The notes under the pieces are model-generated. The model ran no database searches, was not told the DNA's origin, and saw only the letters and a list, made by a program, of their open reading frames with translations. A stretch of 64,000 bases of DNA from contig NZ_QJHK01000014.1 in NCBI RefSeq assembly GCF_003202435.1, forward strand, positions 1 to 64,000. The letters are read 5' to 3'. The first letter of the stretch is position 1, and each line of letters begins with the position of its first letter. Source of the stretch: Flavobacterium cheongpyeongense. GTDB taxonomy: Bacteria > Bacteroidota > Bacteroidia > Flavobacteriales > Flavobacteriaceae. Both the position numbers and the translations under genes were made by a program. Below are positions 1 through 13,643 of the stretch, in pieces.

Positions 1-25
1 TTCTATTATTTTTATATTTGCTTCT

Positions 26-115
26 ACCATTGGGTTTGTTTTTTTGTCAATTACAAAGAACCTAATTTAGGTTCGTAACCCAATGGTTTTTATCTATTTA
101 TGTCTTAACTTAATG
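26..115. repeat. Nested inverted repeats and dispersed repeat unit at left edge
   Basis: An 11-bp inverted repeat (26-36 with 77-87, ACCATTGGGTT and its complement) encloses a perfect 17-bp palindrome (58-74, GAACCTAA-T-TTAGGTTC). Just downstream, 104-115 (CTTAACTTAATG) followed by a CATTGGGATA stretch matches the right end of the element at 10720-10851. I read this as part of a small dispersed flavobacterial repeat whose other end may lie outside the window. No gene is visible in 1-228. Confidence 0.5.
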
Positions 116-194
116 ACATTGGGATAGCAGCCCTGTAGAAATAATTTTTAGCTCAATACAATTAAATCGAATTATTACATTGCTATTTCAAAAT

Positions 195-224
195 AAAGTA
201 TAACTTTGCAATACAAAGTACTTT
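195..224 (+). promoter_or_regulatory. Promoter with overlapping inverted-repeat operator
   Basis: TAACTTTG at 201-208 fits the Bacteroidota -7 consensus TAnnTTTG and lies 21 bases before the start codon at 229. It overlaps the inverted repeat ACTTTG-N5-CAAAGT (203-219), and the palindrome AAAGTACTTT follows at 215-224. Nearly the same block recurs at 1161-1183 before the DUF4173 gene. The likely binder is the winged-helix protein encoded at 848-1138, which would make this operon autoregulated. The binding is inferred. Confidence 0.55.
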
Positions 225-228
225 AATT

Positions 229-843
229 ATGAATCAAAAGCACCAGGAAGATTTAGCACACATTCGTTCTATGATGGAACGCTCTTCAAGATTTATATCC
301 CTAAGCGGACTCTCAGGAGTTTTTGCAGGTTTGTCAGCTTTACTGGGAGGGTTATATGTCTATCAGTTGTTTAAAGCCAACGGGATGGATTATTTAAATG
401 ACGAACACAGATTATATTCGATCAGTCTGGTTTCAGAATTATTTTGGACCGCAATTATAATTTTAATTTGTGCATTCGCATTCGGAGCTTTTTTTACCAT
501 AAGAAAAAGCCGAAAATACAATCTGCCAATCTGGACTTCTGTGACAAAAAAAATGCTGTTCAATCTTGCGGTTCCCCTAACGACCGGAGGGATATTTTGT
601 CTGGCTTTGATTTATCACGGTTATTTTGGTCTCGTAGCTCCATGTACTTTGATTTTTTATGGTCTTGCCGTTATAAATGCCGAGAAGTACACTTTTTCAG
701 ATATAAAATATTTAGGTTTTTGTGAGTTAATTTTAGGATGCATTTCTATTTTTTATATTGGATATGGTTTGATATTTTGGATCATAGGTTTTGGTATTTT
801 GCATATCTTGTACGGACTAATCATGTTCAAAAAATACAAATAA
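229..843 (+). CDS. Six-helix integral membrane protein of unknown function
   Basis: This 204-residue protein has a charged, soluble N-terminus (about residues 1-22) followed by roughly six hydrophobic segments near residues 25-46, 66-90, 112-130, 133-150, 162-180 and 182-200. I see no catalytic motif. It is followed after 4 bases by a small winged-helix regulator, and this two-gene arrangement (membrane protein plus HTH_34-type regulator) is common in flavobacteria. The start at 229 fits the promoter directly upstream. A sensor, transporter or membrane-stress role cannot be decided from the sequence. Confidence 0.8.
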   Translation: MNQKHQEDLAHIRSMMERSSRFISLSGLSGVFAGLSALLGGLYVYQLFKANGMDYLNDEHRLYSISLVSELFWTAIIILICAFAFGAFFTIRKSRKYNLPIWTSVTKKMLFNLAVPLTTGGIFCLALIYHGYFGLVAPCTLIFYGLAVINAEKYTFSDIKYLGFCELILGCISIFYIGYGLIFWIIGFGILHILYGLIMFKKYK

Positions 844-847
844 ACCA

Positions 848-1138
848 ATGGGAATCATTGATAAACTAAATAAAGATTTTGAAAGCCGTGTCAGATTAGG
901 AATCATGTCCGTTCTGATGGTGAATGAATGGGTAGATTTTACCGAAATGAAGACTTTGTTGAATATCACAGACGGTAATTTGGCAAGTCATTCCTCTGCA
1001 CTGGAAAAAGCTGAATATATTGAAGTAAAAAAGGAGTTTGTGGGTAAAAAACCAAAAACATCGTATCAGGTTACACCGCTTGGACGAGCTGCGTTCAAAG
1101 AACATTTGTCGTATCTCGAAAAATTAATGAAATCGTAA
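848..1138 (+). CDS. Small winged-helix transcriptional regulator (HTH_34 type)
   Basis: A 96-residue single-domain DNA-binding protein. The pattern of a recognition helix (about 41-58, TDGNLASHSSALEKAEYI) followed by a beta wing (VKKEFVGKKPKTSYQVT) and the TPLGRAAFKEH end is typical of the MarR/ArsR-like HTH_34 family, which usually represses its own operon. It sits 4 bases after the membrane-protein gene, so the two are surely co-transcribed. The matching inverted repeats at 203-219 and 1162-1178 are its best candidate operators. The ligand or signal is unknown. Confidence 0.88.
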   Translation: MGIIDKLNKDFESRVRLGIMSVLMVNEWVDFTEMKTLLNITDGNLASHSSALEKAEYIEVKKEFVGKKPKTSYQVTPLGRAAFKEHLSYLEKLMKS

Positions 1139-1160
1139 GCACTATATTTTTTTACCTAAA

Positions 1161-1183
1161 AACTTTGAATTACAAAGTACTTT
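1161..1183 (+). promoter_or_regulatory. Second operator-like inverted repeat
   Basis: ACTTTG-AATTA-CAAAGT (1162-1178) followed by the palindrome AAAGTACTTT (1174-1183) matches the block at 203-224 apart from the spacer. It lies about 100 bases before the DUF4173 gene and probably places that gene under the same regulator. Confidence 0.5.
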
Positions 1184-1279
1184 TTAAATATTGAAAGTAT
1201 GAAATTGTCCCGATGTTCATGAAAACAACTGAATAATGGCAATATCATATTTGACCACTAATAAATAAATTCAACAAAT

Positions 1280-2668
1280 ATGAAAAAACTACATTTTATC
1301 TTAGTCAGCAGCTTACTGTTTACGCTGCTTTTTTACAAACAGGAATTAGGGGTGAACCTTGGGCTTTTCGGCTTAGCACTAACTATCTTGATCTGTTATT
1401 TCTTTCAGGATTGGTTCACCGGCAGGTCGCATTTAATTTTGGTAGTTACCTCCATACTCTCCTGTTGTGCTTTTGCCTGGTATGGAGATTTTGCCTCATT
1501 TTGGGCACTGATATTGTCGATTGTTTTTTTACAATTCAAAACACAGGAACCAAAACTCAAACTTTTACAAGTGTTTCCGTTACTGTTTTTAAACGGAATT
1601 GCTTCATTGGGACGTATTCTTATGTTTAGTCAGTACCTTCCGAAAAGAACAGTGAATAACGGTTTTGTCAAAAAAATGATCGCCTATTTTATTATTCCTT
1701 TTCTATTTTTGGGACTATTTTTTATCGTTTATTCTTTCGGAAGTGATCATTTTTCATCTTTGTTTACCGATTATGAGTTAGATCTTGATCTTTGGCAGCT
1801 GCTCGTAATTAGTGGTTTGGGGTTCTATATTTCATTCAGTTTTTGGAATTACTGGATTCCTGAAGTGTGTTATGAAAAAAATGAGCTGTTGGATAATGAT
1901 TTTAAAGAGAACGTTAAGACCCAAAACGAAAGTTCTTTTTCTTTTTTAGACATTGATTTCGAAAGAAAAAGTGGTGAGATTACATTAGTGCTTTTAAACG
2001 TATTGCTTTTGGTTTTTATCGCTACTTATAATTACGAACAGTTTTTTGAAGTTGTCAAAAAAACAAACCTGAGTTCCGATACGCACGAAAGGGTAAATGC
2101 TGTTGTTTTCTCAATCCTCATGGCAGTTGGTATTATCTTGTTTTACTTCAAAGGCGGGTTCAATTTTGACGCAAAAGCTTCCAGTCTTAAAAAACTGTCT
2201 AAAATCTGGATTGTCCTCAATGGGGTTCTGATATTGAGTACAATTATAAAAAATTCAGAATATGTTGCATCTTTCGGATTAACATACAAACGCCTTGGAG
2301 TGTATGCATTTCTGATTTTAGTAACAATTGGTTTGGTTTATGCATTTCTGAAAATTACGAAACAAAAAACAAATGCCTATCTTTTTAATCAGATGATTTG
2401 GTATGCCTACGGAACAGTATTAGTATGCAGTTTTGTCAATTGGGGAAATCTGATAACCAATTATAATATCTCGGTAAAGAAAGGAGTAGAACCAGTTTTT
2501 TTGAGTGATTTGAATTTTAATGATGAAAGCCGCCGTGAATACTTTTTACAAAATAAAATTAAGGAGAGCAAGACTGAGTTAAACAGAGAAAATAATATTT
2601 TAATTTATCAGGAAAAGACTTTTTTATCAAAAGCTTTGTATTATGAGTTTTTGAAAAATAGTAAATAA
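1280..2668 (+). CDS. DUF4173 domain multi-pass membrane protein
   Basis: A 462-residue polytopic membrane protein with about twelve hydrophobic segments. The region about 240-385, with the conserved run around KNSEYVASFGLTYKRLGVYAF, is characteristic of DUF4173 proteins. The C-terminus (about 410-462) is polar and probably cytoplasmic or periplasmic. DUF4173 genes often follow the winged-helix regulator seen here, and the shared operator supports co-regulation. The biochemical role of DUF4173 is not established. A strong terminator follows at 2676. Confidence 0.85.
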   Translation: MKKLHFILVSSLLFTLLFYKQELGVNLGLFGLALTILICYFFQDWFTGRSHLILVVTSILSCCAFAWYGDFASFWALILSIVFLQFKTQEPKLKLLQVFPLLFLNGIASLGRILMFSQYLPKRTVNNGFVKKMIAYFIIPFLFLGLFFIVYSFGSDHFSSLFTDYELDLDLWQLLVISGLGFYISFSFWNYWIPEVCYEKNELLDNDFKENVKTQNESSFSFLDIDFERKSGEITLVLLNVLLLVFIATYNYEQFFEVVKKTNLSSDTHERVNAVVFSILMAVGIILFYFKGGFNFDAKASSLKKLSKIWIVLNGVLILSTIIKNSEYVASFGLTYKRLGVYAFLILVTIGLVYAFLKITKQKTNAYLFNQMIWYAYGTVLVCSFVNWGNLITNYNISVKKGVEPVFLSDLNFNDESRREYFLQNKIKESKTELNRENNILIYQEKTFLSKALYYEFLKNSK

Positions 2669-2675
2669 GCAATGT

Positions 2676-2708
2676 AATCCCATTCAATTTTGAATGGGAT
2701 TTTTTTTG
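2676..2708 (+). terminator. Intrinsic terminator
   Basis: The perfect 11-bp stem AATCCCATTCA/TGAATGGGATT (2676-2686 with 2691-2701) has a 4-base loop and a run of T. It ends the DUF4173 transcript and separates it from the exporter locus. Confidence 0.9.
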
Positions 2709-2744
2709 TAACAGAAATGATTTTTTTTAGAGAACACATAAAAA

Positions 2745-2794
2745 GTTATTAAGAATATCTTTGTTATATTTGGTTTTGAAATATCTGGCACTAC
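2745..2794 (+). promoter_or_regulatory. Upstream block shared by the exporter gene and the 157-residue gene
   Basis: Bases 2746-2776 match 7410-7440 at 28 of 31 positions, including an 18-base identical stretch (CTTTGTTATATTTGGTTT). TATATTTG inside it fits the -7 element TAnnTTTG. The block lies about 94 bases before the exporter start and about 95 bases before the start of the 157-residue gene. I read it as a shared promoter, with the conserved TTATTAAGAA segment as a possible activator site. The LytTR regulator at the end of the locus is the obvious candidate, but its binding here is inferred. Confidence 0.6.
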
Positions 2795-2869
2795 ATTTTT
2801 TGTTACTAATATTAAAAGTAGTTTAGAAACAGAATTATGTTTGTTTATTAGGAAATAGAATGTATAAAT

Positions 2870-5092
2870 ATGAGAAAAAAATTTCCCCACTTTCATCAAT
2901 ATGATTTTATGGATTGTGGTCCAACCAGCCTTAAAATGGTTTGTAAGTTTTATGGCAAAAATGTTGATCTGGCTTATTTAAGGGAAATTTCTTTTATAAA
3001 TGGACAGGGTACTACTTTTGCAGGTTTAGTAGATGCTGCAGAAAAATTGGGGCTCGCTACTATGGGACTGAGTGTAACATTTAATGATCTCGCAGAAGAA
3101 CTGCCTTTACCCTGCATTGTACACTGGCGCCAAAGACATTATGCAGTAGTCTATAAAATTACAGACAATAAAGTTGTAGTAGGTGATCCTGCAAACTTTG
3201 ATTTGATTACCTATTCTAAAAAAGACTTTTTAAAAGGATGGCTTTCTTCTAAAAATATAAATGAAGATTCAGAGGGATTGTTATTGACATTAGAACCAAC
3301 TCCTCTTTTTTATGAGAATGATCATAATAGCGGAATAAAGCCCAATCTTCTTTCTTTTTTAAATAAATATTTCAAACCTCACCGAAAGTATATTGCTCAG
3401 GTTTTATCAGGCTTATTTTTTGGCACAATTTTACAATTAATATTTCCATTTCTAACACAACAAATTGTTGATACTGGTATTAATACCCGAAATATTAATT
3501 TTATTTATTTGATATTAATTGCTCAAATAGTTTTATTTATTTCACAGTCTGCACTCAATATCACGCGTAACTGGATTGTGTTGCACGTAACGAGCCGTAT
3601 GAATTTGCGAATGTTGTCTGATTTTATTATCAAGTTAATGAAACTTCCAATCATATATTTTGACAGCAGGGCAACCGGGGATATTCTTCAAAGGATTAAT
3701 GACAATAACAGAATTCAGACATTTTTATCTACAACAACTCTGGATGTTTTGTTTTCTACATTAACCCTTGTAGTATTTAGCTTTATACTGGCCTATTTTA
3801 ACTTATTCTTATTTATAGTTTTTATCATTGGATCTTCATTTTATATCGCCTGGATATTATTGTTTATGAAGCGAAGGGCAGAGATGGATTTTCGTTATTT
3901 TGACCAAGCTGCCAGTAATCAAAATACAACGATACAACTAATAGACGGAATGCAGGAAATTAAACTTAACGGTTCCGAAAAAAGACGTCGTTGGGATTGG
4001 GAAGCATTACAAACCAGACTTTTTAAGTTAAATATCAAGAATTTGGTTCTGACCCAGACTCAAAATGAAGGAGGCCAGTTTATTGACCAGATAAAAAATA
4101 TCATAATCAGTTTTATTGCCGCTAAAGCTGTAATTGATGGAGAAATGACATTAGGTACCATGCTGTCTGTGCAATATATAATTGGACAAATGAATGTGCC
4201 AATTAATAATTTTTTAGGGTTTATTCGAAATTATCAGGATGCAAAATTAAGCCTGTTGAGACTTTCTGAAATACATAATAAAGCAGATGAAGAGCCTTTA
4301 GAAACAGATTTTATAAATGAATTTGCAGGGGACAAAACCATGAAAATTGAGAATTTGAATTTTCGTTATGGCAGTTCTGCTTCAGAAATGGTTTTAAAAA
4401 ATATCAATATGACACTGCCTGAAGGAAAAGTTACCGCAATAGTAGGATCCAGTGGCAGCGGAAAAACTACTCTTCTCAAACTTTTATTGAAATTTAATGA
4501 GCCAACGAGTGGTTCAATCTATGTTGGGAATACTAATTTAAAGAGTTTCGGATTTAATTTTTGGAGAGCAAATTGTGGAGCAGTAATGCAGGACGGATAT
4601 ATTTTTGCAGATTCAATTTCCAGAAATATAAGCGAATCGGATATTAATGGATTGATTGACAGAAAGAAATTAAGAAAGGCTTCTGAAGTTGCAAATATAG
4701 CTGAGTTTATAGAAGAATTACCCAACGGTTATAAAACCAAAATTGGTTCCAGTGGAATTGGAATCAGTGGTGGACAAAAACAAAGAATATTAATTGCCAG
4801 GGCAGTTTATAAAAATCCCGAATACATTTTCTTTGATGAGGCAACTTCTTCTTTAGATGCCAATAATGAAACTATAATTATGCGAAATCTGGAAGAATTT
4901 TTTAAAAACGGATCAAAGGAGAATAAGACAGTTGTAGTAATTGCACACCGTTTAAGCACTGTAAAAAAAGCAGATCAGATTATAGTGCTTAATAAAGGAG
5001 AAATTGTCGAAAGAGGCAATCATAATGAATTAGTCCAGAAAAAAGGATATTATTTTGGATTAGTAAAAAATCAGCTGGAGTTAGGAGATTAA
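2870..5092 (+). CDS. Peptidase-C39 ABC transporter (double-glycine peptide exporter)
   Basis: A 740-residue PCAT-type exporter that cleaves leader peptides after Gly-Gly and moves the product across the inner membrane. The N-terminal C39 protease domain shows the catalytic Cys16 in DCGPTSLKM, a His in HWRQRHYAVV and an Asp in GDPANFD. A six-helix ABC membrane domain follows (about 165-460). The nucleotide-binding domain has Walker A GSSGSGKTT (about 526-534), signature ISGGQKQR, Walker B FFDEATSS and the H-loop IAHRLST. All catalytic residues are present. The adaptor gene follows 13 bases later and double-glycine substrates follow that. Confidence 0.95.
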   Translation: MRKKFPHFHQYDFMDCGPTSLKMVCKFYGKNVDLAYLREISFINGQGTTFAGLVDAAEKLGLATMGLSVTFNDLAEELPLPCIVHWRQRHYAVVYKITDNKVVVGDPANFDLITYSKKDFLKGWLSSKNINEDSEGLLLTLEPTPLFYENDHNSGIKPNLLSFLNKYFKPHRKYIAQVLSGLFFGTILQLIFPFLTQQIVDTGINTRNINFIYLILIAQIVLFISQSALNITRNWIVLHVTSRMNLRMLSDFIIKLMKLPIIYFDSRATGDILQRINDNNRIQTFLSTTTLDVLFSTLTLVVFSFILAYFNLFLFIVFIIGSSFYIAWILLFMKRRAEMDFRYFDQAASNQNTTIQLIDGMQEIKLNGSEKRRRWDWEALQTRLFKLNIKNLVLTQTQNEGGQFIDQIKNIIISFIAAKAVIDGEMTLGTMLSVQYIIGQMNVPINNFLGFIRNYQDAKLSLLRLSEIHNKADEEPLETDFINEFAGDKTMKIENLNFRYGSSASEMVLKNINMTLPEGKVTAIVGSSGSGKTTLLKLLLKFNEPTSGSIYVGNTNLKSFGFNFWRANCGAVMQDGYIFADSISRNISESDINGLIDRKKLRKASEVANIAEFIEELPNGYKTKIGSSGIGISGGQKQRILIARAVYKNPEYIFFDEATSSLDANNETIIMRNLEEFFKNGSKENKTVVVIAHRLSTVKKADQIIVLNKGEIVERGNHNELVQKKGYYFGLVKNQLELGD

Positions 5093-5105
5093 AATTTAAT
5101 AAGAT

Positions 5106-6395
5106 ATGTCGAAAACGGAGAAAATAGATATCGAAAGTGAAGTTGTCAGAGATTATTTGGAGCAAATACCAAGTGGGTTAGTCCGTTGGGGAAGTTTTGT
5201 AATATGTGCTGTGTTATTGGCATTATTTGTAATGAGCTGTCTTTTGCAATATCCGTCAATAGTACGGGCAGAATTTAAACTTAATGCCCTTATTGTTCCC
5301 AAACCTGTAATTATAAAAATAAATGGAAGAATAGAGAAGATCTTTGTAAAGGAAAATCAGAAAGTAGTAGCCAATCAGGTTTTAGGATACATTGAAAGTA
5401 CAGCCAAATATGAAGAGGTAATGGTACTCGATAATGAACTGAATAAAATGGTGGAATTTATTAAGCTTCATGATTTAGTTGATTTGAATCGAATTCGTTT
5501 GAGAGACTACCAGAATCTGGGCGAAATACAAAGCAGTTATCAAAACTTTCAACAGGTTTATGTGCAGACTTCTGCCTTGTTCAGCGATAAATATTACAAA
5601 CAAATTCAGGGACTTTTAAAGATCGATATAAAAGAACTGGGTGTTTTGTCACAAAATTTAAAAGTTCAGAAACAAATTCTTTATCAGGATTTAAAACTTC
5701 AGGAAAAAGAATATCAAATGAATAAAACATTGCACAAAAGTAGTGTAATAGCAGATGCCGATTTATTTAGGGAAGAAAGTAAAATGCTCTCTAAAAAAGA
5801 ACCAATAAACGAAATAGAAACAGAATTAATAAACAATACCGTTTTAATCAGGACCAAAGAAAAAGAAATATTAGACCTGACCAAACTAGCGACACAGCAA
5901 AAAGAAATTTTTAAGCAATCACTTAATACGTTGCGGAGTGTAATAGCAGGATGGAAGAACCGCTATGTATTGCATGCCCCAAATAATGGGGAAATAAATT
6001 TTACGACTCTCATACAGGAAAAAACAACTTTAAAAGCCAATAGTGAAGTAATGTATGTTTCCAGTCCCGAAAACAAGTACAAAGGAGAAATTAAAATTCC
6101 ACAGGATAATTTTGGAAAAGTGAAGATTGGGCAGACCGTTTTAATTAAGTTTAAAGGCTATCCGTATGAAGAGTACGGTATGGTGGAAGGTAAAATAGAA
6201 ACCATAGCAAAAATTCCTTCAAACGATGAGTCTCATTTTTATGCAGCCATAAATTTGTTAAATAATGGAAAAACGACAAACGGTAAGAGCTTAAGTTTTA
6301 GAAATGGAATGCAGGCTTCTGCTGAGATTATAACAGAGAACATGACGTTAGCCCAAAGAATATTCTATAGTTTTAGAAAAAACCTGATATTTTAA
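5106..6395 (+). CDS. HlyD-family periplasmic adaptor of the peptide exporter
   Basis: A 429-residue membrane-fusion protein. It has one N-terminal transmembrane helix (about 30-50), a split lipoyl-like domain (IKINGRIEKIFVKENQKV and its partner near VLHAPNNGEI), a long coiled coil (about 105-275) and a beta-barrel domain (about 320-400). It would link the C39 ABC transporter to an outer-membrane TolC-type channel, but no such channel gene is in the window. It is co-transcribed with the exporter (13-base gap). Confidence 0.92.
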   Translation: MSKTEKIDIESEVVRDYLEQIPSGLVRWGSFVICAVLLALFVMSCLLQYPSIVRAEFKLNALIVPKPVIIKINGRIEKIFVKENQKVVANQVLGYIESTAKYEEVMVLDNELNKMVEFIKLHDLVDLNRIRLRDYQNLGEIQSSYQNFQQVYVQTSALFSDKYYKQIQGLLKIDIKELGVLSQNLKVQKQILYQDLKLQEKEYQMNKTLHKSSVIADADLFREESKMLSKKEPINEIETELINNTVLIRTKEKEILDLTKLATQQKEIFKQSLNTLRSVIAGWKNRYVLHAPNNGEINFTTLIQEKTTLKANSEVMYVSSPENKYKGEIKIPQDNFGKVKIGQTVLIKFKGYPYEEYGMVEGKIETIAKIPSNDESHFYAAINLLNNGKTTNGKSLSFRNGMQASAEIITENMTLAQRIFYSFRKNLIF

Positions 6396-6604
6396 TTAAA
6401 TAATTTATAGAATGTAATAAAAAAACTACGGTTGTAAATCTTTATTTATTACATTTAACCATTAGGTATCAGAAACCATTTGTCATCCTGAGCGGAGTCG
6501 AAGGCTTTTACTTAAAAAGGTCCTCGGTTAAGTTATATAAAATGCCATATATCTCCAAGTGGCATAAAATAAGCTGGAGTATTAACTTAAAAAAAACAAT
6601 AATT
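6396..6604 (+). promoter_or_regulatory. Leader region of the peptide array, with inverted repeats
   Basis: This region before the first peptide gene has an 11-bp inverted repeat (6410-6420 with 6445-6455), a dispersed repeat (6481-6504) and the inverted repeat ATGCCA/TGGCAT (6542-6547 with 6560-6565, 12-base loop). An open frame from 6542 would add 21 residues to the first peptide, but the other copies start at the equivalent of 6605, so the upstream frame is probably untranslated. The hairpins could allow separate control of peptide and exporter expression. Confidence 0.4.
6481..6504. repeat. Dispersed short repeat (TGTCATCCTGAGCGGAGTCG type)
   Basis: This is one copy of a short non-coding sequence that is scattered in Bacteroidota genomes. 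A diverged second copy (19 of 24 bases) lies at 54652-54675. No function is known to me. Confidence 0.5.
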
Positions 6605-6754
6605 ATGAAAACACTAAAATCGATTACATCAAAAGCGAAAATTCAGGCAAAAACAACTAAAGTTTTCAAACCGCTAACTGCACAACAATTAGAGTCAGTT
6701 ATTGGTGGGCCAGAAACTTCGAGAGGTACGGAAACGACTGTTCAGGATACTTAA
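6605..6754 (+). CDS. Double-glycine peptide precursor, copy 1
   Basis: A 49-residue precursor. The leader is Lys-rich (residues 1-20) and then has the conserved export motif VFKPLTAQQLESVIGG (20-35). The predicted cleavage after Gly34-Gly35 would release the 14-residue core PETSRGTETTVQDT. The LTxxQLxxVxGG pattern is the classic C39 recognition motif, and the exporter is the upstream gene pair. The start at 6605 (ATGAAAACACTAAAATCGATT) is chosen because copy 3 begins identically; an in-frame ATG at 6542 is less likely. The core has no Cys, and I see no modification enzyme nearby. The function is unknown; a signal peptide is inferred from the kinase/regulator pair downstream. Confidence 0.85.
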   Translation: MKTLKSITSKAKIQAKTTKVFKPLTAQQLESVIGGPETSRGTETTVQDT

Positions 6755-6774
6755 TAATTTAAAAACATCAATTT

Positions 6775-6924
6775 ATGAAAGTACTACAATCAATTACAGT
6801 AAAGTCGAAAACTCAGGAAAAAGCACCTAAAGTTTTCAAACCACTAACAGCACAACAATTGGAGTCAGTTATTGGTGGACCAGTAACTTCAAGAGGTACG
6901 GAAACGACTGTTCAGATAGGATAA
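6775..6924 (+). CDS. Double-glycine peptide precursor, copy 2
   Basis: A 49-residue precursor, 170 bases downstream of copy 1. The leader is more diverged (MKVLQSITVKSKTQEKAPK) but keeps VFKPLTAQQLESVIGG. The core is PVTSRGTETTVQIG. Compared with copy 1, the TSRGTETTVQ codons differ only by a synonymous change (TCG to TCA), which points to selection on the peptide. Confidence 0.85.
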   Translation: MKVLQSITVKSKTQEKAPKVFKPLTAQQLESVIGGPVTSRGTETTVQIG

Positions 6925-6943
6925 CTTAATTAAAACATCAATT

Positions 6944-7093
6944 ATGAAAACACTAAAATCGATTACATCAAAAACGAAAACTCAGGCAAAACCAGCTAAA
7001 GTTTTCAAACCCCTAACAGCGCAACAATTAGAATCAGTTATTGGTGGGCCAGAAACTTCGAGAGGTACGGAAACGACTGTTCAGATAGGATAA
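6944..7093 (+). CDS. Double-glycine peptide precursor, copy 3
   Basis: A 49-residue precursor, 169 bases downstream of copy 2, with the leader MKTLKSITSKTKTQAKPAK followed by VFKPLTAQQLESVIGG. Its core is PETSRGTETTVQIG. The non-coding spacer before it (TAACTTAATTAAAACATCA) is repeated before copy 4, so the unit of duplication includes gene and spacer. Confidence 0.85.
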   Translation: MKTLKSITSKTKTQAKPAKVFKPLTAQQLESVIGGPETSRGTETTVQIG

Positions 7094-7112
7094 CTTAATT
7101 AAAACATCACTT

Positions 7113-7262
7113 ATAAAAACACTAAAATCTATTTCATCAAAAAGTAAAATTCAGCAAAAACCAGTTAAAGTTTTCAACCCCCTAACAGCGCAACAATTAG
7201 AGTCAGTTATTGGAGGACTGGAAACTTCAAGAGGAACAGAGACGGTTGTTGCAATAATATAA
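7113..7262 (+). pseudogene. Peptide precursor copy 4, start codon lost (ATG to ATA)
   Basis: This 49-codon unit is in register with copies 1-3 (169 bases after copy 3), but its first codon is ATA at 7113-7115 where the others have ATG. No other in-frame ATG or GTG follows. The rest is intact: FNPLTAQQLESVIGG and the core LETSRGTETVVAII. The end of the core has drifted (TVVAII instead of TTVQxx), in line with relaxed selection. It is either dead or translated poorly from ATA. Confidence 0.75.
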
Positions 7263-7290
7263 TCTTTTAAAGATAGTAAATATGAAAACA

Positions 7291-7327
7291 AAAATCCTAC
7301 TCGATCCAAGAGTAGGATTTTTTTTAT
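7291..7327 (+). terminator. Intrinsic terminator of the peptide array
   Basis: The perfect 11-bp stem AAATCCTACTC/GAGTAGGATTT (7292-7302 with 7310-7320) has a 7-base loop and a T run. It closes the exporter-peptide operon, so the 157-residue gene needs its own promoter, and it has the duplicated block at 7410-7440. Confidence 0.92.
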
Positions 7328-7408
7328 GAAATATTTTTTTTTAAGATTATAAAATTTATTTAACGATAAAATGTTGTGATTTGACGTTTAATATGTGGGC
7401 AAACAAAA

Positions 7409-7440
7409 CTTATTAAGAAATACTTTGTTATATTTGGTTT
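7409..7440 (+). promoter_or_regulatory. Duplicated promoter block before the 157-residue gene
   Basis: This is the second copy of the 31-bp block at 2746-2776 (28/31 identical), containing the -7 match TATATTTG. It lies downstream of the terminator at 7291 and about 95 bases before the start at 7535. A short CCTC/GAGG inverted repeat follows at about 7458-7474 in the presumed 5' untranslated region. Confidence 0.6.
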
Positions 7441-7534
7441 CTGGAAATATACTCATTACCTCAGTTAAAACGAGGCTTAATAGTGAATTTCAAATGTAAA
7501 ATATTAATTAATCTAAACCAAAAAAATTAGTACC

Positions 7535-8008
7535 ATGGAAAAAACTACTCTTCATTCTCCAATTGAAAAAATTTATCCACCTGGAAAAAAAATTGATGAA
7601 ACAGGAAAACTCCTTAAAGTTGGAACTGTAACTTTTCCTAATAACCAAGAGAAGATTCCTTTTTCTCCTGTAGTCCAGGCTTTTAAGTCTAGTGATAATA
7701 AAAATCTTCATATCAATGCAGTTGTTTTTGTCACTTCTTTTGGCCCTGCTAATAACGAGTTAAATTTTGAAATCTATCAAAATCAGTATGTTGATCTAGA
7801 TGGAAAGCTTCAGGTACAATTTTTTATATGTTATGATTTATTAGATGATCCAGGAACTGTATTTGATATTTATGAAATTAGTTTTGATGCTAATAAAAAA
7901 CCATTTGGGAAACATTTATTCACAGATGTTAATACAATTCAAACTTTTCTTTGGGACATAGATCCTGACACTTCGAGAGGAACAGAAACTACTGTACAAC
8001 ATAATTAG
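7535..8008 (+). CDS. 157-residue protein ending in the peptide core motif TSRGTETTVQ
   Basis: I do not recognise the body of this protein (residues 1-145). It is soluble-looking, rich in predicted beta strands, and lacks Cys-rich, signal-peptide or membrane segments. The last 12 residues, TSRGTETTVQHN (146-157), repeat the core of the tandem peptides, and the underlying codons differ from copy 1 only at synonymous positions up to Gln155. It has no LTxxQLxxVxGG leader. It could be a larger exported substrate, an immunity or chaperone-like partner, or a carrier that presents the peptide. It shares its promoter block with the exporter and is followed 24 bases later by the histidine kinase gene. 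Confidence 0.8.
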   Translation: MEKTTLHSPIEKIYPPGKKIDETGKLLKVGTVTFPNNQEKIPFSPVVQAFKSSDNKNLHINAVVFVTSFGPANNELNFEIYQNQYVDLDGKLQVQFFICYDLLDDPGTVFDIYEISFDANKKPFGKHLFTDVNTIQTFLWDIDPDTSRGTETTVQHN

Positions 8009-8032
8009 AATGAAATTTTAATCGAATAGACA

Positions 8033-9766
8033 ATGATTAATTTTTTTTTTATTACTATAATTTTTACATTAAATACATTTTTCCTTTTTTCTCAGGAAAT
8101 ATCAGAAAACGATTTAATGCGATTTGAGATTAAAAAAAAAGTAATAAAATATCATAAGCAAATTAATTTTAATAAAGCTCAGCATTTCTTTTTCAAAAAG
8201 GAATGGGATTCTACTTTAGTTTATTCAATGAAACAACTCAGTAATAGAAATACTCTTGAGTTATCTAATTATTGTCATTATTTTAGAGCAATAAGTTTTT
8301 TTGAAAAAAAAATTATTAAAGAGGCGAAAAAAGAGTTTAATTTGATTTCTTCTAATTTTAAATTTTATTATAAGGTAAATTTCTCATTAGGAGAAATTGC
8401 TTTAGAGCAAAGAGAGTTTGATATAGCATTATCGCATTTTAATGCAATTGAATATCTAAATAAAGATTTTTATGATTTTAAAAAAAGTACAGTATTTCAC
8501 AACTTAGGACTATGTTATTTACACCTTGCAAAATATGATAAATCTGAAGAGTATTTGTTTAAAAGCGCGAAATTGCAAGAAATAGAAAAAGATACGTTAT
8601 TGTTTATAAGTTCTTACATGGATATTGCGAATTTATATTACATTCAGTACAAAGATAATCAGGCAATACCTTATTTTGAGAAAGCGTATAATTTATCAAA
8701 AAAGATAAAATCCTTTGATTTAAAAAGAGCAGCAGCCAAAAATATGGCAGCTGTTGAAGAAAACAGAAAGAATTTTCAAGCTGCACTAATATACAGAAAA
8801 GAATATGAAGCATGGAAAGACTCCTTAAGCGATCAAAATAAAGTCTGGGCAATTGCAGATCTTGAAAAGAAGTTTGCTGTAAAACAAAAGCAAAAAGAAG
8901 TCAATGTTCTCGCAGCAGAGAATAAAGCAAAAATAGCCGAAAGAAATGGGTTTCTCATTTCTTCGGTTTTATTGTTTGTGCTGTTGGGTACCGGAGTTTA
9001 TTTTTACAGACAAAAAATTAAAAACAATAAAATCATCTTGGCGCAGAAAAATGAACTCGATGAACTTAATGCTACCAAAGACAAATTGTTTTCGATCGTC
9101 AGCCATGATTTGCGATCTTCTGTAAATGCCTTAAAAGTTAGTAATGGTATGTTATTAGAGAATCTGGAGAATAAAAATTATGCAGAACTCGATGTTTTGC
9201 TGCATAAAAACAGCTCTATTGCCGGAGGAGCTTATAATTTGCTGGATAACCTGCTTAACTGGGCCTTATTACAAACCCAACAGGCCTATTTTTTTCAGGA
9301 ATCCTTGCATCTGGCTACGATTGTACAGCATGTAGAATACAATTACAAACCCTTGATGTTAAACAAAAACATCGATTTTAAAAACGATGTTGCCACATCA
9401 GATCATGTTTTTGCTGATCTGGATTCGCTCAAGATAATTATTCGGAATTTTTTAGACAACGCGATTAAATTCTCTAAAGAAAACGGAACGATCTCTATTT
9501 ACAGTCGTCCTTCATCAGAGGAGTTTTGCTATTTAGTGATCGAAGATACCGGATTGGGAATGAACGAAGCAACCAGAAAGGAATTATTAAAAGAAACCAT
9601 TTTGCTTTCAAAAAAGCAAAACGATGATATAATAGGAACGGGATTAGGAATGCAGTTATGCAAAAGCCTGATTCGTAAAAATGAAGGAAAACTCGATATA
9701 GAGAGTGAACAACAGGTAGGAACAAAGATCATCATAGCATTGCCAAAGTTTAAAAATAATGGATAA
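8033..9766 (+). CDS. Histidine kinase with periplasmic TPR sensor domain
   Basis: A 577-residue sensor kinase. It has an N-terminal signal sequence (about 1-22, ending near FLFSQ), TPR-like helical repeats (about 40-290, clearest at 150-260), one transmembrane helix (about 305-325), a HisKA domain with phospho-accepting His358 in IVSHDLRSS, and an ATPase domain with N-box NFLDNAIKFS, DTGLGM and GTGLGMQLC. TPR domains often bind peptides, so the sensor may read the exported peptide; this is inferred. The TPR part is markedly richer in AT (several lines near 20% GC) than the kinase part (about 25-43%). Its 3' end overlaps the regulator gene by 8 bases. Confidence 0.93.
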   Translation: MINFFFITIIFTLNTFFLFSQEISENDLMRFEIKKKVIKYHKQINFNKAQHFFFKKEWDSTLVYSMKQLSNRNTLELSNYCHYFRAISFFEKKIIKEAKKEFNLISSNFKFYYKVNFSLGEIALEQREFDIALSHFNAIEYLNKDFYDFKKSTVFHNLGLCYLHLAKYDKSEEYLFKSAKLQEIEKDTLLFISSYMDIANLYYIQYKDNQAIPYFEKAYNLSKKIKSFDLKRAAAKNMAAVEENRKNFQAALIYRKEYEAWKDSLSDQNKVWAIADLEKKFAVKQKQKEVNVLAAENKAKIAERNGFLISSVLLFVLLGTGVYFYRQKIKNNKIILAQKNELDELNATKDKLFSIVSHDLRSSVNALKVSNGMLLENLENKNYAELDVLLHKNSSIAGGAYNLLDNLLNWALLQTQQAYFFQESLHLATIVQHVEYNYKPLMLNKNIDFKNDVATSDHVFADLDSLKIIIRNFLDNAIKFSKENGTISIYSRPSSEEFCYLVIEDTGLGMNEATRKELLKETILLSKKQNDDIIGTGLGMQLCKSLIRKNEGKLDIESEQQVGTKIIIALPKFKNNG

Positions 9767-10505
9767 TATAAATGTACTTATTGTCGAAGACACCCCTGCA
9801 GAAAGCGATGCACTCGTAAAAGTGCTTTCTGAAAATAATTATAATATTGTAGGTGTTGCCCGGACGCATCAGGAAGCACTAACATTGTTTTACCAAAATA
9901 CAATTGACATTGTGATTATCGATGTTTTTCTGGACGGGAAACCGGACGGAATTACCTTTGCAGAAACGATTAACATCGTACCCAATGGATTAAAACCTTT
10001 TGTTTTTTTAACGAGTTCCAAAGACCGCCAGATTTTTGAAAGGGCTAAACTTACAAAACCTTTTAGCTTTTTATTAAAACCTTTTAATGAACTTGAGATT
10101 CTGTACGCACTCGAAATGGCTGTAGAGAAATTTTATGAGCAGACCAATGCATTTCATAGTGAGGATCAAAATACGGTAATAAGCAGCGATTCGCTTTTTA
10201 TTAAAAAAAACAAAGTTTTAAAGAAAGTTCAAATCAAGGATATTCTGTACATAGAAGTTGAAGACCGTTATTGCAATATTGTTACTGACACAGATAAATT
10301 TGTTATTTTGATATCTTTAACCAAAATTATTCAGTTGTTGGATCCTGCTAAGTTTTGTCAGACACACCGCAATTATATCGTTAACCTGAGTAAGATTGAG
10401 CAAATAAATGTAAATGATAATCTTATTGTTTTGAAAGGGAACCACAAAGTAACGCTAAGTGATAAGTACAAAGACTTCGTAAAAAACTTTAGAATATTAA
10501 AATAA
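9759..10505 (+). CDS. LytTR-family response regulator
   Basis: A 248-residue regulator with a receiver domain (about 3-125; phospho-acceptor Asp55 in VIIDVFLDG, with Lys in the FLLKPF segment) and a C-terminal LytTR DNA-binding domain (about 145-248, with VEDRYCNI, CQTHRNYIVNLSKI and VTLSDKYKDF). LytTR regulators such as AgrA and ComE control peptide signalling and bacteriocin genes in Gram-positive bacteria. The overlap with the kinase gene makes the pair certain, and the duplicated promoter blocks are plausible targets. Confidence 0.93.
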   Translation: MDNINVLIVEDTPAESDALVKVLSENNYNIVGVARTHQEALTLFYQNTIDIVIIDVFLDGKPDGITFAETINIVPNGLKPFVFLTSSKDRQIFERAKLTKPFSFLLKPFNELEILYALEMAVEKFYEQTNAFHSEDQNTVISSDSLFIKKNKVLKKVQIKDILYIEVEDRYCNIVTDTDKFVILISLTKIIQLLDPAKFCQTHRNYIVNLSKIEQINVNDNLIVLKGNHKVTLSDKYKDFVKNFRILK

Positions 10506-10896
10506 AATTTACTTCTGTTGTATTTTAAATACATATCTTTTATAAGTATGTGATTATCATTTTTTATATAAAAAGATGCTTTGTAGAAATTCAGTCAAGT
10601 ATCTTTTTTTTGCTCTAATTTAGCTGTGTTAAAAGATGAATTGGTTTTAGTCAATAAATCAACACTGTTGCTTGGCTGAAGTGTTTTATATCTAAAAAAA
10701 TATAACCCTCCTGATAAAACCCAACATCATTAAGTTAAGGATTTCTTACTGGATTTTTATAAATCTAGCTTTCTCATTCTATGATTTATCCAATTTACTT
10801 GCATTTAATCATAGAATGAGAGAAAAACAAAGCTTAACTTAATGGCATGGGATAAAGCGAGAGTCAACTCTAATAATCAAACTCAGGTTATAAGAA
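10506..10896. other. Intergenic region between the peptide locus and rluF
   Basis: There are 391 bases with no open frame worth calling. The left part (10506-10719) is AT-rich without clear signals apart from a weak inverted repeat (ACATATCTTTTATAAGTATGT, about 10531-10551). The right part contains the MITE-like element at 10720-10851. I see no gene for a modifying enzyme or outer-membrane channel. Confidence 0.7.
10720..10851. repeat. MITE-like element with terminal and internal inverted repeats
   Basis: The outer arms CATTAAGTTAAG (10728-10739) and CTTAACTTAATG (10833-10844) are perfect, with imperfect extension to CCCA/TGGG at the ends. The inner arms TCTCATTCTATGATT (10772-10786) and its complement (10807-10821) are also perfect over 15 bp. 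The outer arm also occurs at 104-115. The whole is about 130 bp, non-coding and could fold as a nested hairpin. Confidence 0.6.
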
Positions 10897-11709
10897 TCAA
10901 TAATCGCCTTTTTTCTTGAATCGTGGGTCGTATTTCGAAATGTATTCGGTTCTGCGTTTAGGAGCTTCTGTTTTGGGCAAACTGGCTTCTTCAGTTTTGC
11001 TGGAGGGCTCGATTAACTGATTGAGTTCTTTGATCTCAGCATCGGTTAAATCACGATAACGGCCAACCGGGACATCTAATGAAATATTGATAATCCGGAT
11101 GCGTTTCAAAGCTGTTACTTCGTACCCTAAATATTCAGACATTCTGCGGATCTGACGGTTTAAACCTTGTGTTAAAATAATTTTGAAAGTGTATTTACTG
11201 ATTTGTTCTACTTTACATTTTCGGGTCACGGTATCGAGAATCGGAACGCCATTTCCCATGCGTTGAATAAAACGTTCTGTAATAGGTTTATTTACGGTTA
11301 CAGTATATTCTTTTTCGTGGTTGTTTCTGGCACGTAAAATTTTGTTGACAATGTCGCCGTCATTGGTCATGAAAATTAATCCTTCACTGGCTTTATCCAG
11401 TCTTCCAATCGGGAAAATGCGTTTTGGATAATTGATATAATCAACAATATTGTTTCGAACTTCAAGATTGGTAGTACATTCAATTCCAACAGGTTTGTTG
11501 AAAGCCAGATACACCATTTTTTCGTGTTTTTCCACGATTAATTTTCCGTCTATTCGCACTTCATCAAGGGGTGAAACTTTGGTTCCCATTTCAGGCACGA
11601 CACCGTTTATGGTCACGCGTCCTTCTTCGATGAGTTTATCAGCTTCACGGCGGGAACAATAACCGGTTTCTCCAATGAATTTATTAAGGCGTTTTAGAGT
11701 CTCTTCCAT
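10897..11709 (-). CDS. rluF: 23S rRNA pseudouridine synthase, RluF type
   Basis: A 270-residue enzyme that isomerises a uridine in 23S rRNA. It has an N-terminal S4 RNA-binding domain (about 5-60, with FIGETGYCSRREADKLI) and an RsuA/RluF catalytic domain with the active-site Asp in GRLDKASEGL. The motif RRMSEYLGYEVTALKR is typical of RluF. A basic tail (about 240-270) is probably disordered. The exact modified position cannot be read from the sequence; RluF proteins modify U2604 (E. coli numbering). Confidence 0.9.
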   Translation of the reverse strand: MEETLKRLNKFIGETGYCSRREADKLIEEGRVTINGVVPEMGTKVSPLDEVRIDGKLIVEKHEKMVYLAFNKPVGIECTTNLEVRNNIVDYINYPKRIFPIGRLDKASEGLIFMTNDGDIVNKILRARNNHEKEYTVTVNKPITERFIQRMGNGVPILDTVTRKCKVEQISKYTFKIILTQGLNRQIRRMSEYLGYEVTALKRIRIINISLDVPVGRYRDLTDAEIKELNQLIEPSSKTEEASLPKTEAPKRRTEYISKYDPRFKKKGDY

Positions 11710-11823
11710 AGTGCAAAAGTAGTCATAATTTTAGATTTAAGACTTTAGATTTCAGATTTTAGATTTTTTGAAAAAAAACTCAGAACCTTGGTAACTCAGA
11801 ATCTCACAAACTCACTTTCGAAC

Positions 11824-12678
11824 CTATTTTTTGCTAAATAAAAAATCGATTACTTTCTGGTATAATTCGTCATCGTGCATGCCATGCCCTAAACCATTGG
11901 TTTCGATAAACTGACTGTTTTTCCAATTACGGGCAATTTTTTTGCCTTCTTCAAAAGAAACAACATCATCAGAAGTATCATGTGCCACTAAACCCGGGAT
12001 ATTGAATTCTGAAGCAAATTTTTGCCCTGAAAAATCTTCGAGTTTAAAATTGAAATGGGTTAAAAAACGATTTTCTAAAAGCGAAAACATCCTGGTGTTT
12101 AGACTCAGCATCGAAACATAATTGTCAATCAGAGTCTTTAAATCAGAAGGAGCGCCCAAAATGACCATTTTATTGATACTTGTATTGGGGAACAAATATT
12201 GGTGATAAACACAGGCCGCACCGCCAATAGAATGACCAATAATAATATCAGGCCGATATTTTTCGACTGCTTTATTGATGAATTCTGCATAAAGTGGGAC
12301 ATTAAATTCTTTACCGCTGCTTTGTCCATGCGCAGGGGCGTCGATAGCAATAATCGTACTTCCGGATTTTTGAAGATGTGGTAAGGTCTTTTGCCAGCGT
12401 GAAGCATTGCTTTCCCAGCCATGAACGAGTAAAATTTTGGTTTCATTACCTTTCCAGATATAGGTCTGAAAATGATGCTCATTATGATGGAAGGTTTCGG
12501 TTTCAGTATTTTGTAAAATTTCAGGTAAACTTTCTTTTAGCAGTCTGCCGTCCCGTGGCTGACTGAAAAGTGCATATGAAAGTTCGACGGCTTTTTGCGG
12601 ATGTACATAACTCAGGAAATTAATATATTGTCCAACCGATTTTAATGTAATAAAACGAATTCCTTTTTTAAGTCCCAA
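11824..12678 (-). CDS. Alpha/beta hydrolase
   Basis: A 284-residue serine hydrolase. It shows the oxyanion motif VHGWESNASRW, the nucleophile Ser in GHSIGG, and the catalytic His in GLGHGMHDD near the C-terminus; DTSDDVVSFEEG provides the acid residue. There is no signal peptide, so it is probably cytoplasmic. The substrate is unknown. It stands alone, leftward, between rluF and the coiled-coil protein. Confidence 0.88.
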   Translation of the reverse strand: MGLKKGIRFITLKSVGQYINFLSYVHPQKAVELSYALFSQPRDGRLLKESLPEILQNTETETFHHNEHHFQTYIWKGNETKILLVHGWESNASRWQKTLPHLQKSGSTIIAIDAPAHGQSSGKEFNVPLYAEFINKAVEKYRPDIIIGHSIGGAACVYHQYLFPNTSINKMVILGAPSDLKTLIDNYVSMLSLNTRMFSLLENRFLTHFNFKLEDFSGQKFASEFNIPGLVAHDTSDDVVSFEEGKKIARNWKNSQFIETNGLGHGMHDDELYQKVIDFLFSKK

Positions 12679-12824
12679 AACGTAATTTTTTTAAGGTAAA
12701 GAATGATGGTGAAACCTGTTAAAAAAGGTTTGCCACAGTTTAAGAGGATCAAAGATTTAAAACACTCAAATATTTTGAGATGAAATCCTTGATAAATCTT
12801 TTAAACTACGGCAAAAATAAGGAT

Positions 12825-12853
12825 AAAAAAAAGTCCCGATGTTTATCGGAACC
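12825..12853 (-). terminator. Intrinsic terminator of the nif3/coiled-coil operon
   Basis: On the minus strand the stem GTTCCGAT/ATCGGGAC (arms 12845-12852 and 12833-12840, one mismatch, 4-base loop) is followed by a T run. It lies just after the stop at 12861. Confidence 0.8.
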
Positions 12854-12860
12854 ATTTTAT

Positions 12861-13640
12861 TTAGATTTTAGCGAACAATTGTTCCATTTTTTCTTTCTCT
12901 TCTTCAGCTAGTGCACTGTCAACTAAGATTCTTCCTGAATGTTCATCAGTGATGATTTTTTTTCTGGAAGCAATTTCGACCTGTGTCTGTGGAGGAATTG
13001 TGAAGAATGATCCGGCAGAAGCTCCTCTTTCGATGGATACTACAGCTAAACCATTACGGACACTGCTTCTGATCCTGTTGTAAGCAGCTAATAATCTTTC
13101 TTCGATTTGCTCAGAAAACTCAGCAGATTTCTCTGTCAAGAAAATTTCTTCTTTCTGAGTTTCAGCCATAATGGCGTCCAATTCAGATTTTTTATGCTTC
13201 AGGTGATTGCTTTTAGCTTCTAATTTTTCTTTTAGATTAGAGATAACTTCTTTCTTGTGTTCGATAGAAGCTTTCATTTCTTTGATCTGCTTTTCAGCTA
13301 GTTGAATTTCCAATTCCTGAAATTCTACCTCTTTGGTCAAAGAATTAAATTCTCTGTTATTGCGAACTGATTCTTGTTGTTTTGTGTATTTTTTGATAAC
13401 CTCTTTGTGTTCTTCAATAGCATTTTTCTTAGTTTTAATAAGATCCTCAACTACTTCAAGTTCACTTTTAAGTTTTTCTGAACGAGTGCTTAAACCTGCA
13501 ACTTCATCTTCTAAATCTTCAACCTCTAATGGAAGTTCCCCTCTTACGTTTCTGATTTCGTCAATTCTCGAGTCAATAAGCTGTAAATCGTATATTGCTC
13601 TTAACTTGTCCTCAACACTTAATTCTTTCGTATTCGCCAT
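12861..13640 (-). CDS. Coiled-coil protein of the C4 zinc-ribbon family, zinc ligands lost
   Basis: A 259-residue protein with a long helical hairpin (about 10-185) and a C-terminal segment homologous to the C4-type zinc-ribbon family. In the family the last part carries two CxxC pairs. Here the matching positions read GASAGSF and ITDEHSGRI, and the whole protein has no Cys, so it cannot bind zinc in the usual way. It follows the Nif3-like gene by 3 bases, an arrangement conserved in many bacteria. Its role is unknown; relatives are suggested to bind nucleic acid. Confidence 0.88.
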   Translation of the reverse strand: MANTKELSVEDKLRAIYDLQLIDSRIDEIRNVRGELPLEVEDLEDEVAGLSTRSEKLKSELEVVEDLIKTKKNAIEEHKEVIKKYTKQQESVRNNREFNSLTKEVEFQELEIQLAEKQIKEMKASIEHKKEVISNLKEKLEAKSNHLKHKKSELDAIMAETQKEEIFLTEKSAEFSEQIEERLLAAYNRIRSSVRNGLAVVSIERGASAGSFFTIPPQTQVEIASRKKIITDEHSGRILVDSALAEEEKEKMEQLFAKI

Positions 13641-13643
13641 ATT

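Follow-up and report, generated by a model that had tools for sequence, protein, structure and literature searches.

A leaderless SRGT-tailed protein as the probable ligand of a TPR-sensor histidine kinase: sequence evidence for a signalling module in Flavobacteriaceae

In this study, we analysed a stretch of 64,000 nucleotides of Flavobacterium cheongpyeongense (contig NZ_QJHK01000014.1, positions 1 to 64,000; hereafter the window), in which a locus at 2745-10505 encodes a peptide exporter, short peptides with double-glycine (GG) leaders and a two-component system. We found that the conserved unit of this locus consists of three genes, which encode a leaderless protein ending in PxxSRGTxT (the tail protein), a histidine kinase with a tetratricopeptide repeat (TPR) sensor and a LytTR response regulator. 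Our results suggest that the kinase, through its predicted periplasmic TPR sensor, probably recognises the SRGT tail as its cognate ligand, so that the three genes would form a ligand-receptor signalling module.

Peptide pheromone circuits are textbook Gram-positive biology. The order and linkage of the genes, the specificity of the motif, the promoter block shared by two operons and the co-variation of residues described below point, at the sequence level, to a so far undescribed peptide-signalling system in Gram-negative bacteria. Its parts are of known kinds (GG export, peptide binding by TPR and LytTR control), and what appears to be new is that they are combined with a leaderless tail protein and a receptor code. 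In the literature searched, with most subscription papers and all preprints outside its scope, there was no description of such a circuit in Bacteroidota, and the string TSRGTET was not found. The family offers candidates for both ligand and receptor, together with a predicted specificity residue, natural variants and a promoter block unique in the genome, and it is therefore testable with a synthetic 12-residue peptide (PETSRGTETTVQ). It also raises the question of how a periplasmic domain senses a protein that has no secretion signal.

The three-gene unit and its distribution

The conserved unit lies on the plus strand of the window as follows; the genes of the kinase and the regulator overlap by 8 nt.

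7535-8008, plus strand: tail protein of 157 aa, without leader and predicted to form a beta sandwich, ending in DTSRGTETTVQHN
8033-9766, plus strand: histidine kinase whose sensor, a TPR domain at about 25-265, is predicted to be periplasmic (signal sequence; transmembrane (TM) segment at about 306-325)
9759-10505, plus strand: LytTR response regulator (248 aa; LytTR 70.5 bits, Response_reg 53.7 bits)

The kinase was used as the query in order to avoid the bias of tail-based searching, and among 299 genomes of the genus, 81 carry its family. The resulting table has 90 rows, consisting of 85 near-full-length genes, two split genes with two rows each (G105:C9 and G269) and one contig-edge fragment (G046); here and below, G000 is the genome of the window, and other G- and L-numbers denote genomes and loci of comparison. 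With the fragment excluded, 87 kinase genes were counted for linkage, and the upstream region was read for all 87. An SRGT-tailed gene lies directly upstream of the kinase in 80 of the 87, a gene with a degenerate tail (STGT, SKRT, SRAT or SKGT) in 4, and neither in 3. These seven exceptions score 449-887 bits and stand low in the list, the best score of which is 1016. In a set of ten genomes the kinase family was discrete, with 17 genes at 471 bits or more versus at most 174 bits for other kinases, and all 17 had the upstream SRGT tail gene. The same was true of 19/19 kinases in the loci of a phylum-wide sample, some genomes of which are also in the genus count.

In this phylum-wide sample the kinase was found in 15 of 395 genomes, belonging to two genera of Flavobacteriaceae, and a family-wide search with the tail profile gave matches in 20 of 299 genomes and 17 of 236 genera (E<=0.01). 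Because of these two results, the module is, as far as sampled, mainly a Flavobacteriaceae system. Within the genus, relatives of the tail protein occur in 88 genomes, the weakest of them at chance level. In the loci that were read, the kinase and the LytTR regulator follow the tail gene, in most cases with neither an exporter nor a GG peptide. In one clade the module sits at a constant site, flanked by a DUF4153 gene and, on the opposite side, by another gene that we take to be rluB-like.

We also read 72 loci of named genomes, from Flavobacterium, Flavivirga, Tenacibaculum, Aquimarina, Hyunsoonleella, Algibacter, Bizionia, Kordia, Aureisphaera, Mariniflexile, other Flavobacteriaceae and '[Flexibacter] sp. 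ATCC 35208'. The tail gene, kinase and regulator were complete in 68 of them, counting L181, the tail of which has SRGV, and L186, which was counted via a neighbouring second module. Among the remaining four, L163, L178 and L206 end before the full set, and the script found no tail open reading frame (ORF) in L201. A regular expression left 13 of 130 distinct kinase ORFs without a tail. Nine of these are truncated where a short locus ends; in L122 the tail lies within a 339-aa ORF above the length limit, in L186 the tail ORF is cut at the locus start, L181 has the SRGV mentioned above, and L095 is the second half of a split kinase. In L095 and L356, the kinase gene is split into two ORFs next to an intact tail gene.

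The tail protein matched no Pfam family at E<=1 and has no GG leader. Its conservation is concentrated at the C-terminus: over 700 pairs from 117 modules, mean identity was 0.31 for the body and 0.76 for the 12-residue tail, beside 0.53 for the sensor and 0.62 for the kinase core. In the 117 modules Pro at -3 and S-R-G-T were always present, and 115 modules had Asp at -4, 116 Thr at +5 and 104 Val at +7; the search expression required S, R/K, G and T/S, so that the invariance of SRGT is partly built in, and Pro, Asp, Thr+5 and Val were unconstrained. In an alignment of 31 tail proteins (A1), 8 of 10 invariant columns fall in the tail, and in an alignment of 16 sequences of one clade (A2), 6 of 26. 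The median hydropathy of the N-terminus (12-residue) was 0.72 for the tail proteins versus 2.50 for the kinases. Structure prediction gave a beta sandwich whose last strand is the tail (mean pLDDT, the predicted local distance difference test, 81; lower near the tail). A known fold could not be assigned, as Foldseek gave no match at E<=0.001 and the best structural neighbours, which were NigD-like, were weak (4pqx_C, Z 5.8, root-mean-square deviation 4.2, 106 residues). In one clade (L324, L333, L334, L336, L033 and L034) a Gly-rich stretch precedes the tail, like the GG junction of the peptides.

The preliminary description of this locus had noticed a second protein ending in the same core as the GG peptides, and this protein is the conserved partner of the kinase. 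The sharing of the core is beyond chance. A DNA pattern coding PxxSRGTxT has 6 matches in the 5.2-Mb genome, all in this system: three fall in the intact GG peptides and three in tail proteins. The pattern read backwards has 1. The second and third modules of the genome are L069 (G000:C87:15000-34000), 6978-10048, with the tail IGSRGTVTTVQ, and L070 (G000:C86:240000-258000), 6277-9328, with the tail ETSRGTVTTVQ; their next genes are GH64-like and CBAH, respectively. Recurrent leaderless genes after the regulators of other modules are MVL lectin with GH18, DUF2589 and PixA (e.g. L075 12300-13840, L083 11772-14053 and L290 8952-9413).

Co-variation of the tail with the TPR sensor

In the kinase, a hydrophobic segment at the N-terminus is followed by a helical-repeat domain at about residues 25-265 (mostly pLDDT 76-96) and by a further hydrophobic segment at about 306-325. 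Because of these two hydrophobic segments, the TPR domain is predicted to be periplasmic and should be so; the signal-sequence and TM calls come from hydropathy only, and the lowest values among the kinases are weak (0.82 for the N-terminus and -0.50 for the TM region). The matches listed in a structure search with the kinase were to its kinase core and did not inform on the sensor, and a PDB sequence search with the sensor returned generic TPR proteins.

Co-variation was analysed in 137 modules, 6 of 143 having been dropped for a kinase ORF of <=540 aa. The distance between tails tracked the distance between sensors given the kinase distance (partial r 0.48), and the corresponding value for the kinase distance given the sensor was -0.29. 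At the level of residues, tails with a small residue (A/G/S/N) at -1 were accompanied by Thr at kinase residue 200 in 25 of 25 modules, and tails with another residue at -1 in 1 of 112. When relatedness was considered, 12 independent pairs were obtained on well-supported branches (17 over all branches) and all 12 agreed (sign test p 0.0005), although one of them shows no difference in a few of 200 pairings, in which case 11 agree. In the reverse direction 12 of 13 independent pairs agreed and one did not differ. The tree for these pairs was built without residues 176-244. As a control, the best partition was determined for each of 507 columns: residue 200 left 1 mismatch, and the next were residues 204 and 548, which left 16 and 17, respectively. 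Among 13 left-out modules, which come from other genera or have cut or split kinases, the rule held in 11.

Residues 200 and 204 are positions 9 and 13 of the TPR repeat at about 192-225, in the same helix; the signature residues A199, Y202, A211 and F215 of this repeat were checked. It is reported in the part of PMC1261162 consulted that TPR positions 2, 5, 9, 12, 13, 33 and 34 line the concave face, and residue 200, being at position 9, would thus be a concave ligand position. The TPR ligand positions as a group were enriched for co-variation with tail position -1 (p 0.016; p 0.039 without residue 200) and with +6 (p 0.002; p 0.004 without residue 200), and no enrichment at these positions was found for tail -2, +4 and +7. 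Residue 200 of the window kinase is Asn. Of the three modules of the genome, two belong to the T/N type and the third to the G/T type, a difference that, judged from these residues, would help to keep them apart.

Promoter block, double-glycine peptides and exporter

The remaining features of the locus are listed below; ORFs were inspected over 1-14000, and Pfam was run on ten ORFs of the locus.

2746-2772, plus strand: promoter block copy 1, TTATTAAGAAWWNNTTTRYTATATTTG, upstream of the exporter operon
2870-5092, plus strand: C39 peptidase ATP-binding cassette (ABC) exporter (740 aa; Pfam Peptidase_C39 107.7 bits, ABC_membrane, ABC_tran)
5106-6395, plus strand: HlyD-type periplasmic adaptor (429 aa; HlyD_3 45.5 bits)
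6605-6754, plus strand: GG-leader peptide 1, predicted core PETSRGTETTVQDT (TIGR01847 17.2 bits)
6775-6924, plus strand: GG-leader peptide 2, predicted core PVTSRGTETTVQIG (TIGR01847 16.1 bits)
6944-7093, plus strand: GG-leader peptide 3, predicted core PETSRGTETTVQIG (TIGR01847 17.2 bits)
7113-7262, plus strand: degenerate fourth GG peptide copy, core LETSRGTETVVAII (ATA replaces ATG; 79% identity; no internal stop)
7290-7322, strand not assigned: terminator-like hairpin with a 13-pair stem, separating two gene groups
7410-7436, plus strand: promoter block copy 2, upstream of the tail gene, kept at the orthologous site

The exporter, adaptor, GG peptides, tail protein, kinase and regulator are all on the plus strand. 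All three GG peptides exceed the cut-off of NCBIfam TIGR01847 'bacteriocin_sig' (15.7 bits). The set of genes on one strand named in the preliminary description was thus borne out by the Pfam and TIGR01847 calls; the peptide core, which had been called invariant, is indeed shared, and comparison of the three peptides shows it to be nearly rather than fully invariant. The hairpin lies after the exporter and peptide genes and before the tail, kinase and regulator genes; the scan lists it on the minus strand, and on the plus strand a T run overlaps the stem end. Immediately upstream of the GG peptides, at 6483-6505, is a single copy in the window of TCATCCTGAGCGGAGTCGAAGGC, which we presume to be a repeat common in the host's group.

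The duplication of the promoter block, also pointed out earlier, is real. Allowing <=3 mismatches, TTATTAAGAAWWNNTTTRYTATATTTG has exactly two matches in the 5.2-Mb genome, at 2746-2772 and 7410-7436, while its backwards-read control has 1 genome match; within the window there were two matches versus 0 in 100 shuffles. The two copies share 28 identical bases in a 36-base comparison, for which the best shuffle gave 22. A similar block (>=24/36 positions, above the best of 30 shuffles each) was found in 16 of 46 other upstream regions of tail genes, and the other 30 were without it at this threshold. The block upstream of the exporter thereby resembles the promoter of the relatives' tail genes. 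From the sequences, this suggests that the exporter operon and the tail operon are under common control in this clade, and the LytTR regulator itself may be what controls the blocks.

Copies of the tail behind a GG leader were found in the module of six genomes: G000 (the window), G757, G103, G121, G052 and G278. From these, 32 distinct ATG-started GG peptides were read, with predicted cores of 12-18 residues without Cys; in 20 of the 32 the GG ends right before the conserved Pro. At -1, all 32 cores carry T, L, I or V and never A, G, S or N, and the kinases of the six modules have Asn or Gly at residue 200. The peptides lie between exporter and tail gene in the window and in G757 (where the locus is split over two contig ends), and between kinase and regulator in G103, G121, G052 and G278. 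Because of this difference in position, the additions look independent in the genomes compared. The core was also compared with the local tail: the number of tails, of 117, that match the GG cores better than the local one is 8 for the window, 2 for G757, 1 for G121, 1 for G278, 31 for G052 and 102 for G103, and as judged by these sequences the fit to the local tail holds in four of the six genomes. A copying of the peptides from tail-gene DNA was considered and rejected, as the DNA identity was above the codon-usage expectation for all peptides only in G121 (6/6, P<=0.02); single peptides were above it in G103, G052 and G278, and in the window P was 0.17-0.43. In L031 of G103, an array of 18 copies at 9704-12992, between exporter and regulator, varies in the residues around SRGT; 16 of the 18 are ATG-started ORFs in the list, and one has an in-frame stop.

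When the 299 genomes of the genus were searched with the window GG peptide, GG versions turned up in 5, versus 81 for the kinase, and the search returned a tail protein in one further genome and unrelated weak matches in two; the query is short and may miss diverged peptides. An exporter of the window type is present in 3 of 48 module-bearing genomes, each with GG tail copies (G000, G757 and G103). The orthologues share 94% identity in G757 and 81% in G103, and the next best exporter in the 48 genomes has 60%; several of these other C39 exporters (<=60% identity) with visible neighbours adjoin Cys-rich GG peptides. The exporter was accordingly rejected as the core of the system. The preliminary description had tied it to the kinase in one peptide export-and-sensing circuit and had proposed to look in relatives for the tail beside both. 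SRGT tails do stand beside TPR-kinase/LytTR pairs and mostly not beside C39 exporters, and the exporter proves separable, the outcome that the preliminary description had taken as refuting its signalling reading. This removes the exporter and the GG peptides from the core and not the signalling, because the TSRGT motif follows the kinase; the part of the earlier proposal that took the locus for a signalling circuit with the TPR domain as receptor of TSRGT agrees with the linkage and the co-variation. The C39 exporter is, on this distribution, a late add-on that would deliver the tail ligand. Since the exported motif matches the tail and the exporter runs under a copy of the tail gene's promoter, the GG peptides probably carry the tail signal in an amplified and secreted form.

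Proposed mechanism, alternatives and related systems

We propose that the tail, P-x-[T/small]-S-R-G-T-x-T, of the protein encoded upstream would be bound by the periplasmic TPR groove, and that the histidine kinase would then phosphorylate the LytTR regulator. The tail protein might be released by lysing kin or by some exporter. In the genome of the window, the late-acquired C39/HlyD exporter would cut the motif from the three GG peptides and export it, its operon lying behind the copy of the tail gene's promoter, and the exported peptide would return to the periplasm.

Several points weigh against this proposal. The whole case rests on sequence. The tail protein has neither a hydrophobic N-terminus nor a GG leader, yet the sensor is predicted to be periplasmic. 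Export by C39/HlyD is normally outward, and a 14-residue peptide must re-cross the outer membrane. The kinases of G160, G233:C16 and G235 have no recognisable tail gene upstream. The GG peptides of G121, G052 and G278 have no adjacent exporter, and in G278 no related exporter was found at E<=1e-100. The GG cores of G103 and G052 fit most or many foreign tails better than the local one, as counted above. The -1/200 pair and the class A/G/S/N were picked post hoc, after the contingency table, and the two breaks among the left-out modules combine Ser or Gly with Asn200.

As a wider reading, we consider with some reservation, belief and doubt being nearly balanced, that these modules form a family of private channels in Flavobacteriaceae. 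The tail of a leaderless cytoplasmic protein would be the signal, read by the TPR kinase outside the inner membrane; the -1/200 code would help to separate channels, even paralogous ones, and some lineages would have joined the tail to GG leaders and gained an exporter.

A version of the ligand proposal that fixes the release route is an alarm for lysis of kin, in which the cytoplasmic tail protein is freed by lysing sisters and the kinase of the survivors induces defensive proteins, the GG peptides being a later, active version. Several recurrent genes right downstream are, like the tail proteins with their low N-terminal hydropathy, leaderless (MVL lectin, GH18, GH64, PixA and CBAH), and it is for this reason that such an alarm is worth considering. 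A hydrophobic N-terminus was found in 14% of 125 downstream genes versus 24% of 888 control genes at locus ends. On the other hand, the control set is rough, every downstream family is limited to 12 or fewer of the 99 modules, and in one recurrent family of 9 most members do have a hydrophobic N-terminus. Membership of a regulon is only putative, and the downstream genes might just possibly constitute one. We regard this alarm as a possibility that is more doubtful than not.

It is unlikely that the tail protein acts inside the cell as a partner or inhibitor whose tail binds the kinase or the regulator in the cytoplasm. Such a role would agree with a leaderless protein encoded beside the pair. 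However, the tail co-varies with the TPR sensor and not with the kinase core, the signal sequence and the TM segment at about 306-325 place the TPR domain outside the inner membrane (by hydropathy only), and the GG leaders on the SRGT motif suggest an action outside the cytoplasm.

The varied array of G103 could be a diversified ligand or decoy library. That GG arrays in general are decoy or jamming libraries acting on the receptors of neighbours seems to us improbable. The 18 copies of G103 vary at +4 (E, K, R, T or V) and match their own tail protein poorly, as such a library might. Nevertheless, the residues at -1 of all 32 cores are those that their own Asn200 or Gly200 receptors predict, and the cores match the local tail well in the window, G757, G121 and G278.

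Bacteriocin-like toxins under the control of the pair would account for the GG leaders, the C39 exporter and the TIGR01847 matches, and the other C39 exporters of these genomes do adjoin Cys-rich GG peptides resembling bacteriocins. The predicted cores here, however, are short, lack Cys and repeat the motif of a resident tail protein, and no immunity gene was recognised at the locus, though no systematic search was made; we consider toxins quite improbable. A sorting or secretion tag, suggested by the C-terminal position and strong conservation of the tail, is the least credible alternative, as the tail co-varies with a sensor residue and, in its own genome, the exact PxxSRGTxT coding pattern is found nowhere else.

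The proposed ligand-receptor module can be compared with known systems. ComCDE and the class II bacteriocin three-component systems of Gram-positive bacteria likewise combine a GG-leader peptide, a C39 exporter, a kinase and a LytTR regulator in one locus. The ComCDE-type features present here are the GG peptide with a C39 exporter and the LytTR regulator. In the ComCDE type the regulator binds repeats in the promoter of the peptide gene; what is seen here is the promoter block shared by the two operons. The receptor kinase of the ComCDE type is polytopic (HPK10-type), whereas the window kinase is not: it has one signal sequence, one hydrophobic segment and, between them, a single TPR sensor. 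Here, moreover, the conserved carrier of the ligand is a leaderless protein and the exporter is optional. No AgrB-type processing protease was among the Pfam matches of the ten locus proteins, no dedicated search having been made. FimS is not known to have a tail protein beside it. The FimS/FimR system of Porphyromonas gingivalis gives the best NCBIfam match of the window kinase (NF053520, 141.3 bits, best stretch residues 243-571), which is far below the cut-off of 600.

In the part of PMC3601957 consulted, the RNPP receptors (Rap, PlcR and PrgX) bind a short linear peptide on the concave TPR face, as predicted here, and a single receptor residue can set specificity. The Phr peptides QRGMI and ERGMT of the same source also carry R-G, a mere resemblance to SRGT. 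The RNPP receptor is cytoplasmic and itself the effector, unlike the receptor proposed here, which is the predicted periplasmic part of a membrane histidine kinase. The bacteroidetocins are, according to the portion of PMC6671954 consulted, GG-leader peptides with peptidase-containing exporters in Bacteroidota, like those of the window; they are 35-50 aa long, with at least two Cys, and kill, whereas the predicted cores here have 12-18 aa and no Cys, and they match the tail of a resident protein. Signalling was suggested near some precursor peptides of Bacteroidales in PMC10352776, which makes no mention of LytTR in the sections consulted. The NigD-like proteins of Bacteroides are the nearest structural neighbours of the tail-protein model, but with Z below 8 this may reflect only a common beta arrangement.

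The locus is also flanked by two copies of an 18-base sequence, at 104-121 and 10833-10850 of the window, each with one mismatch to CTTAACTTAATGGCATTG, which had 0 matches in shuffles; these copies are possibly a small repeat element.

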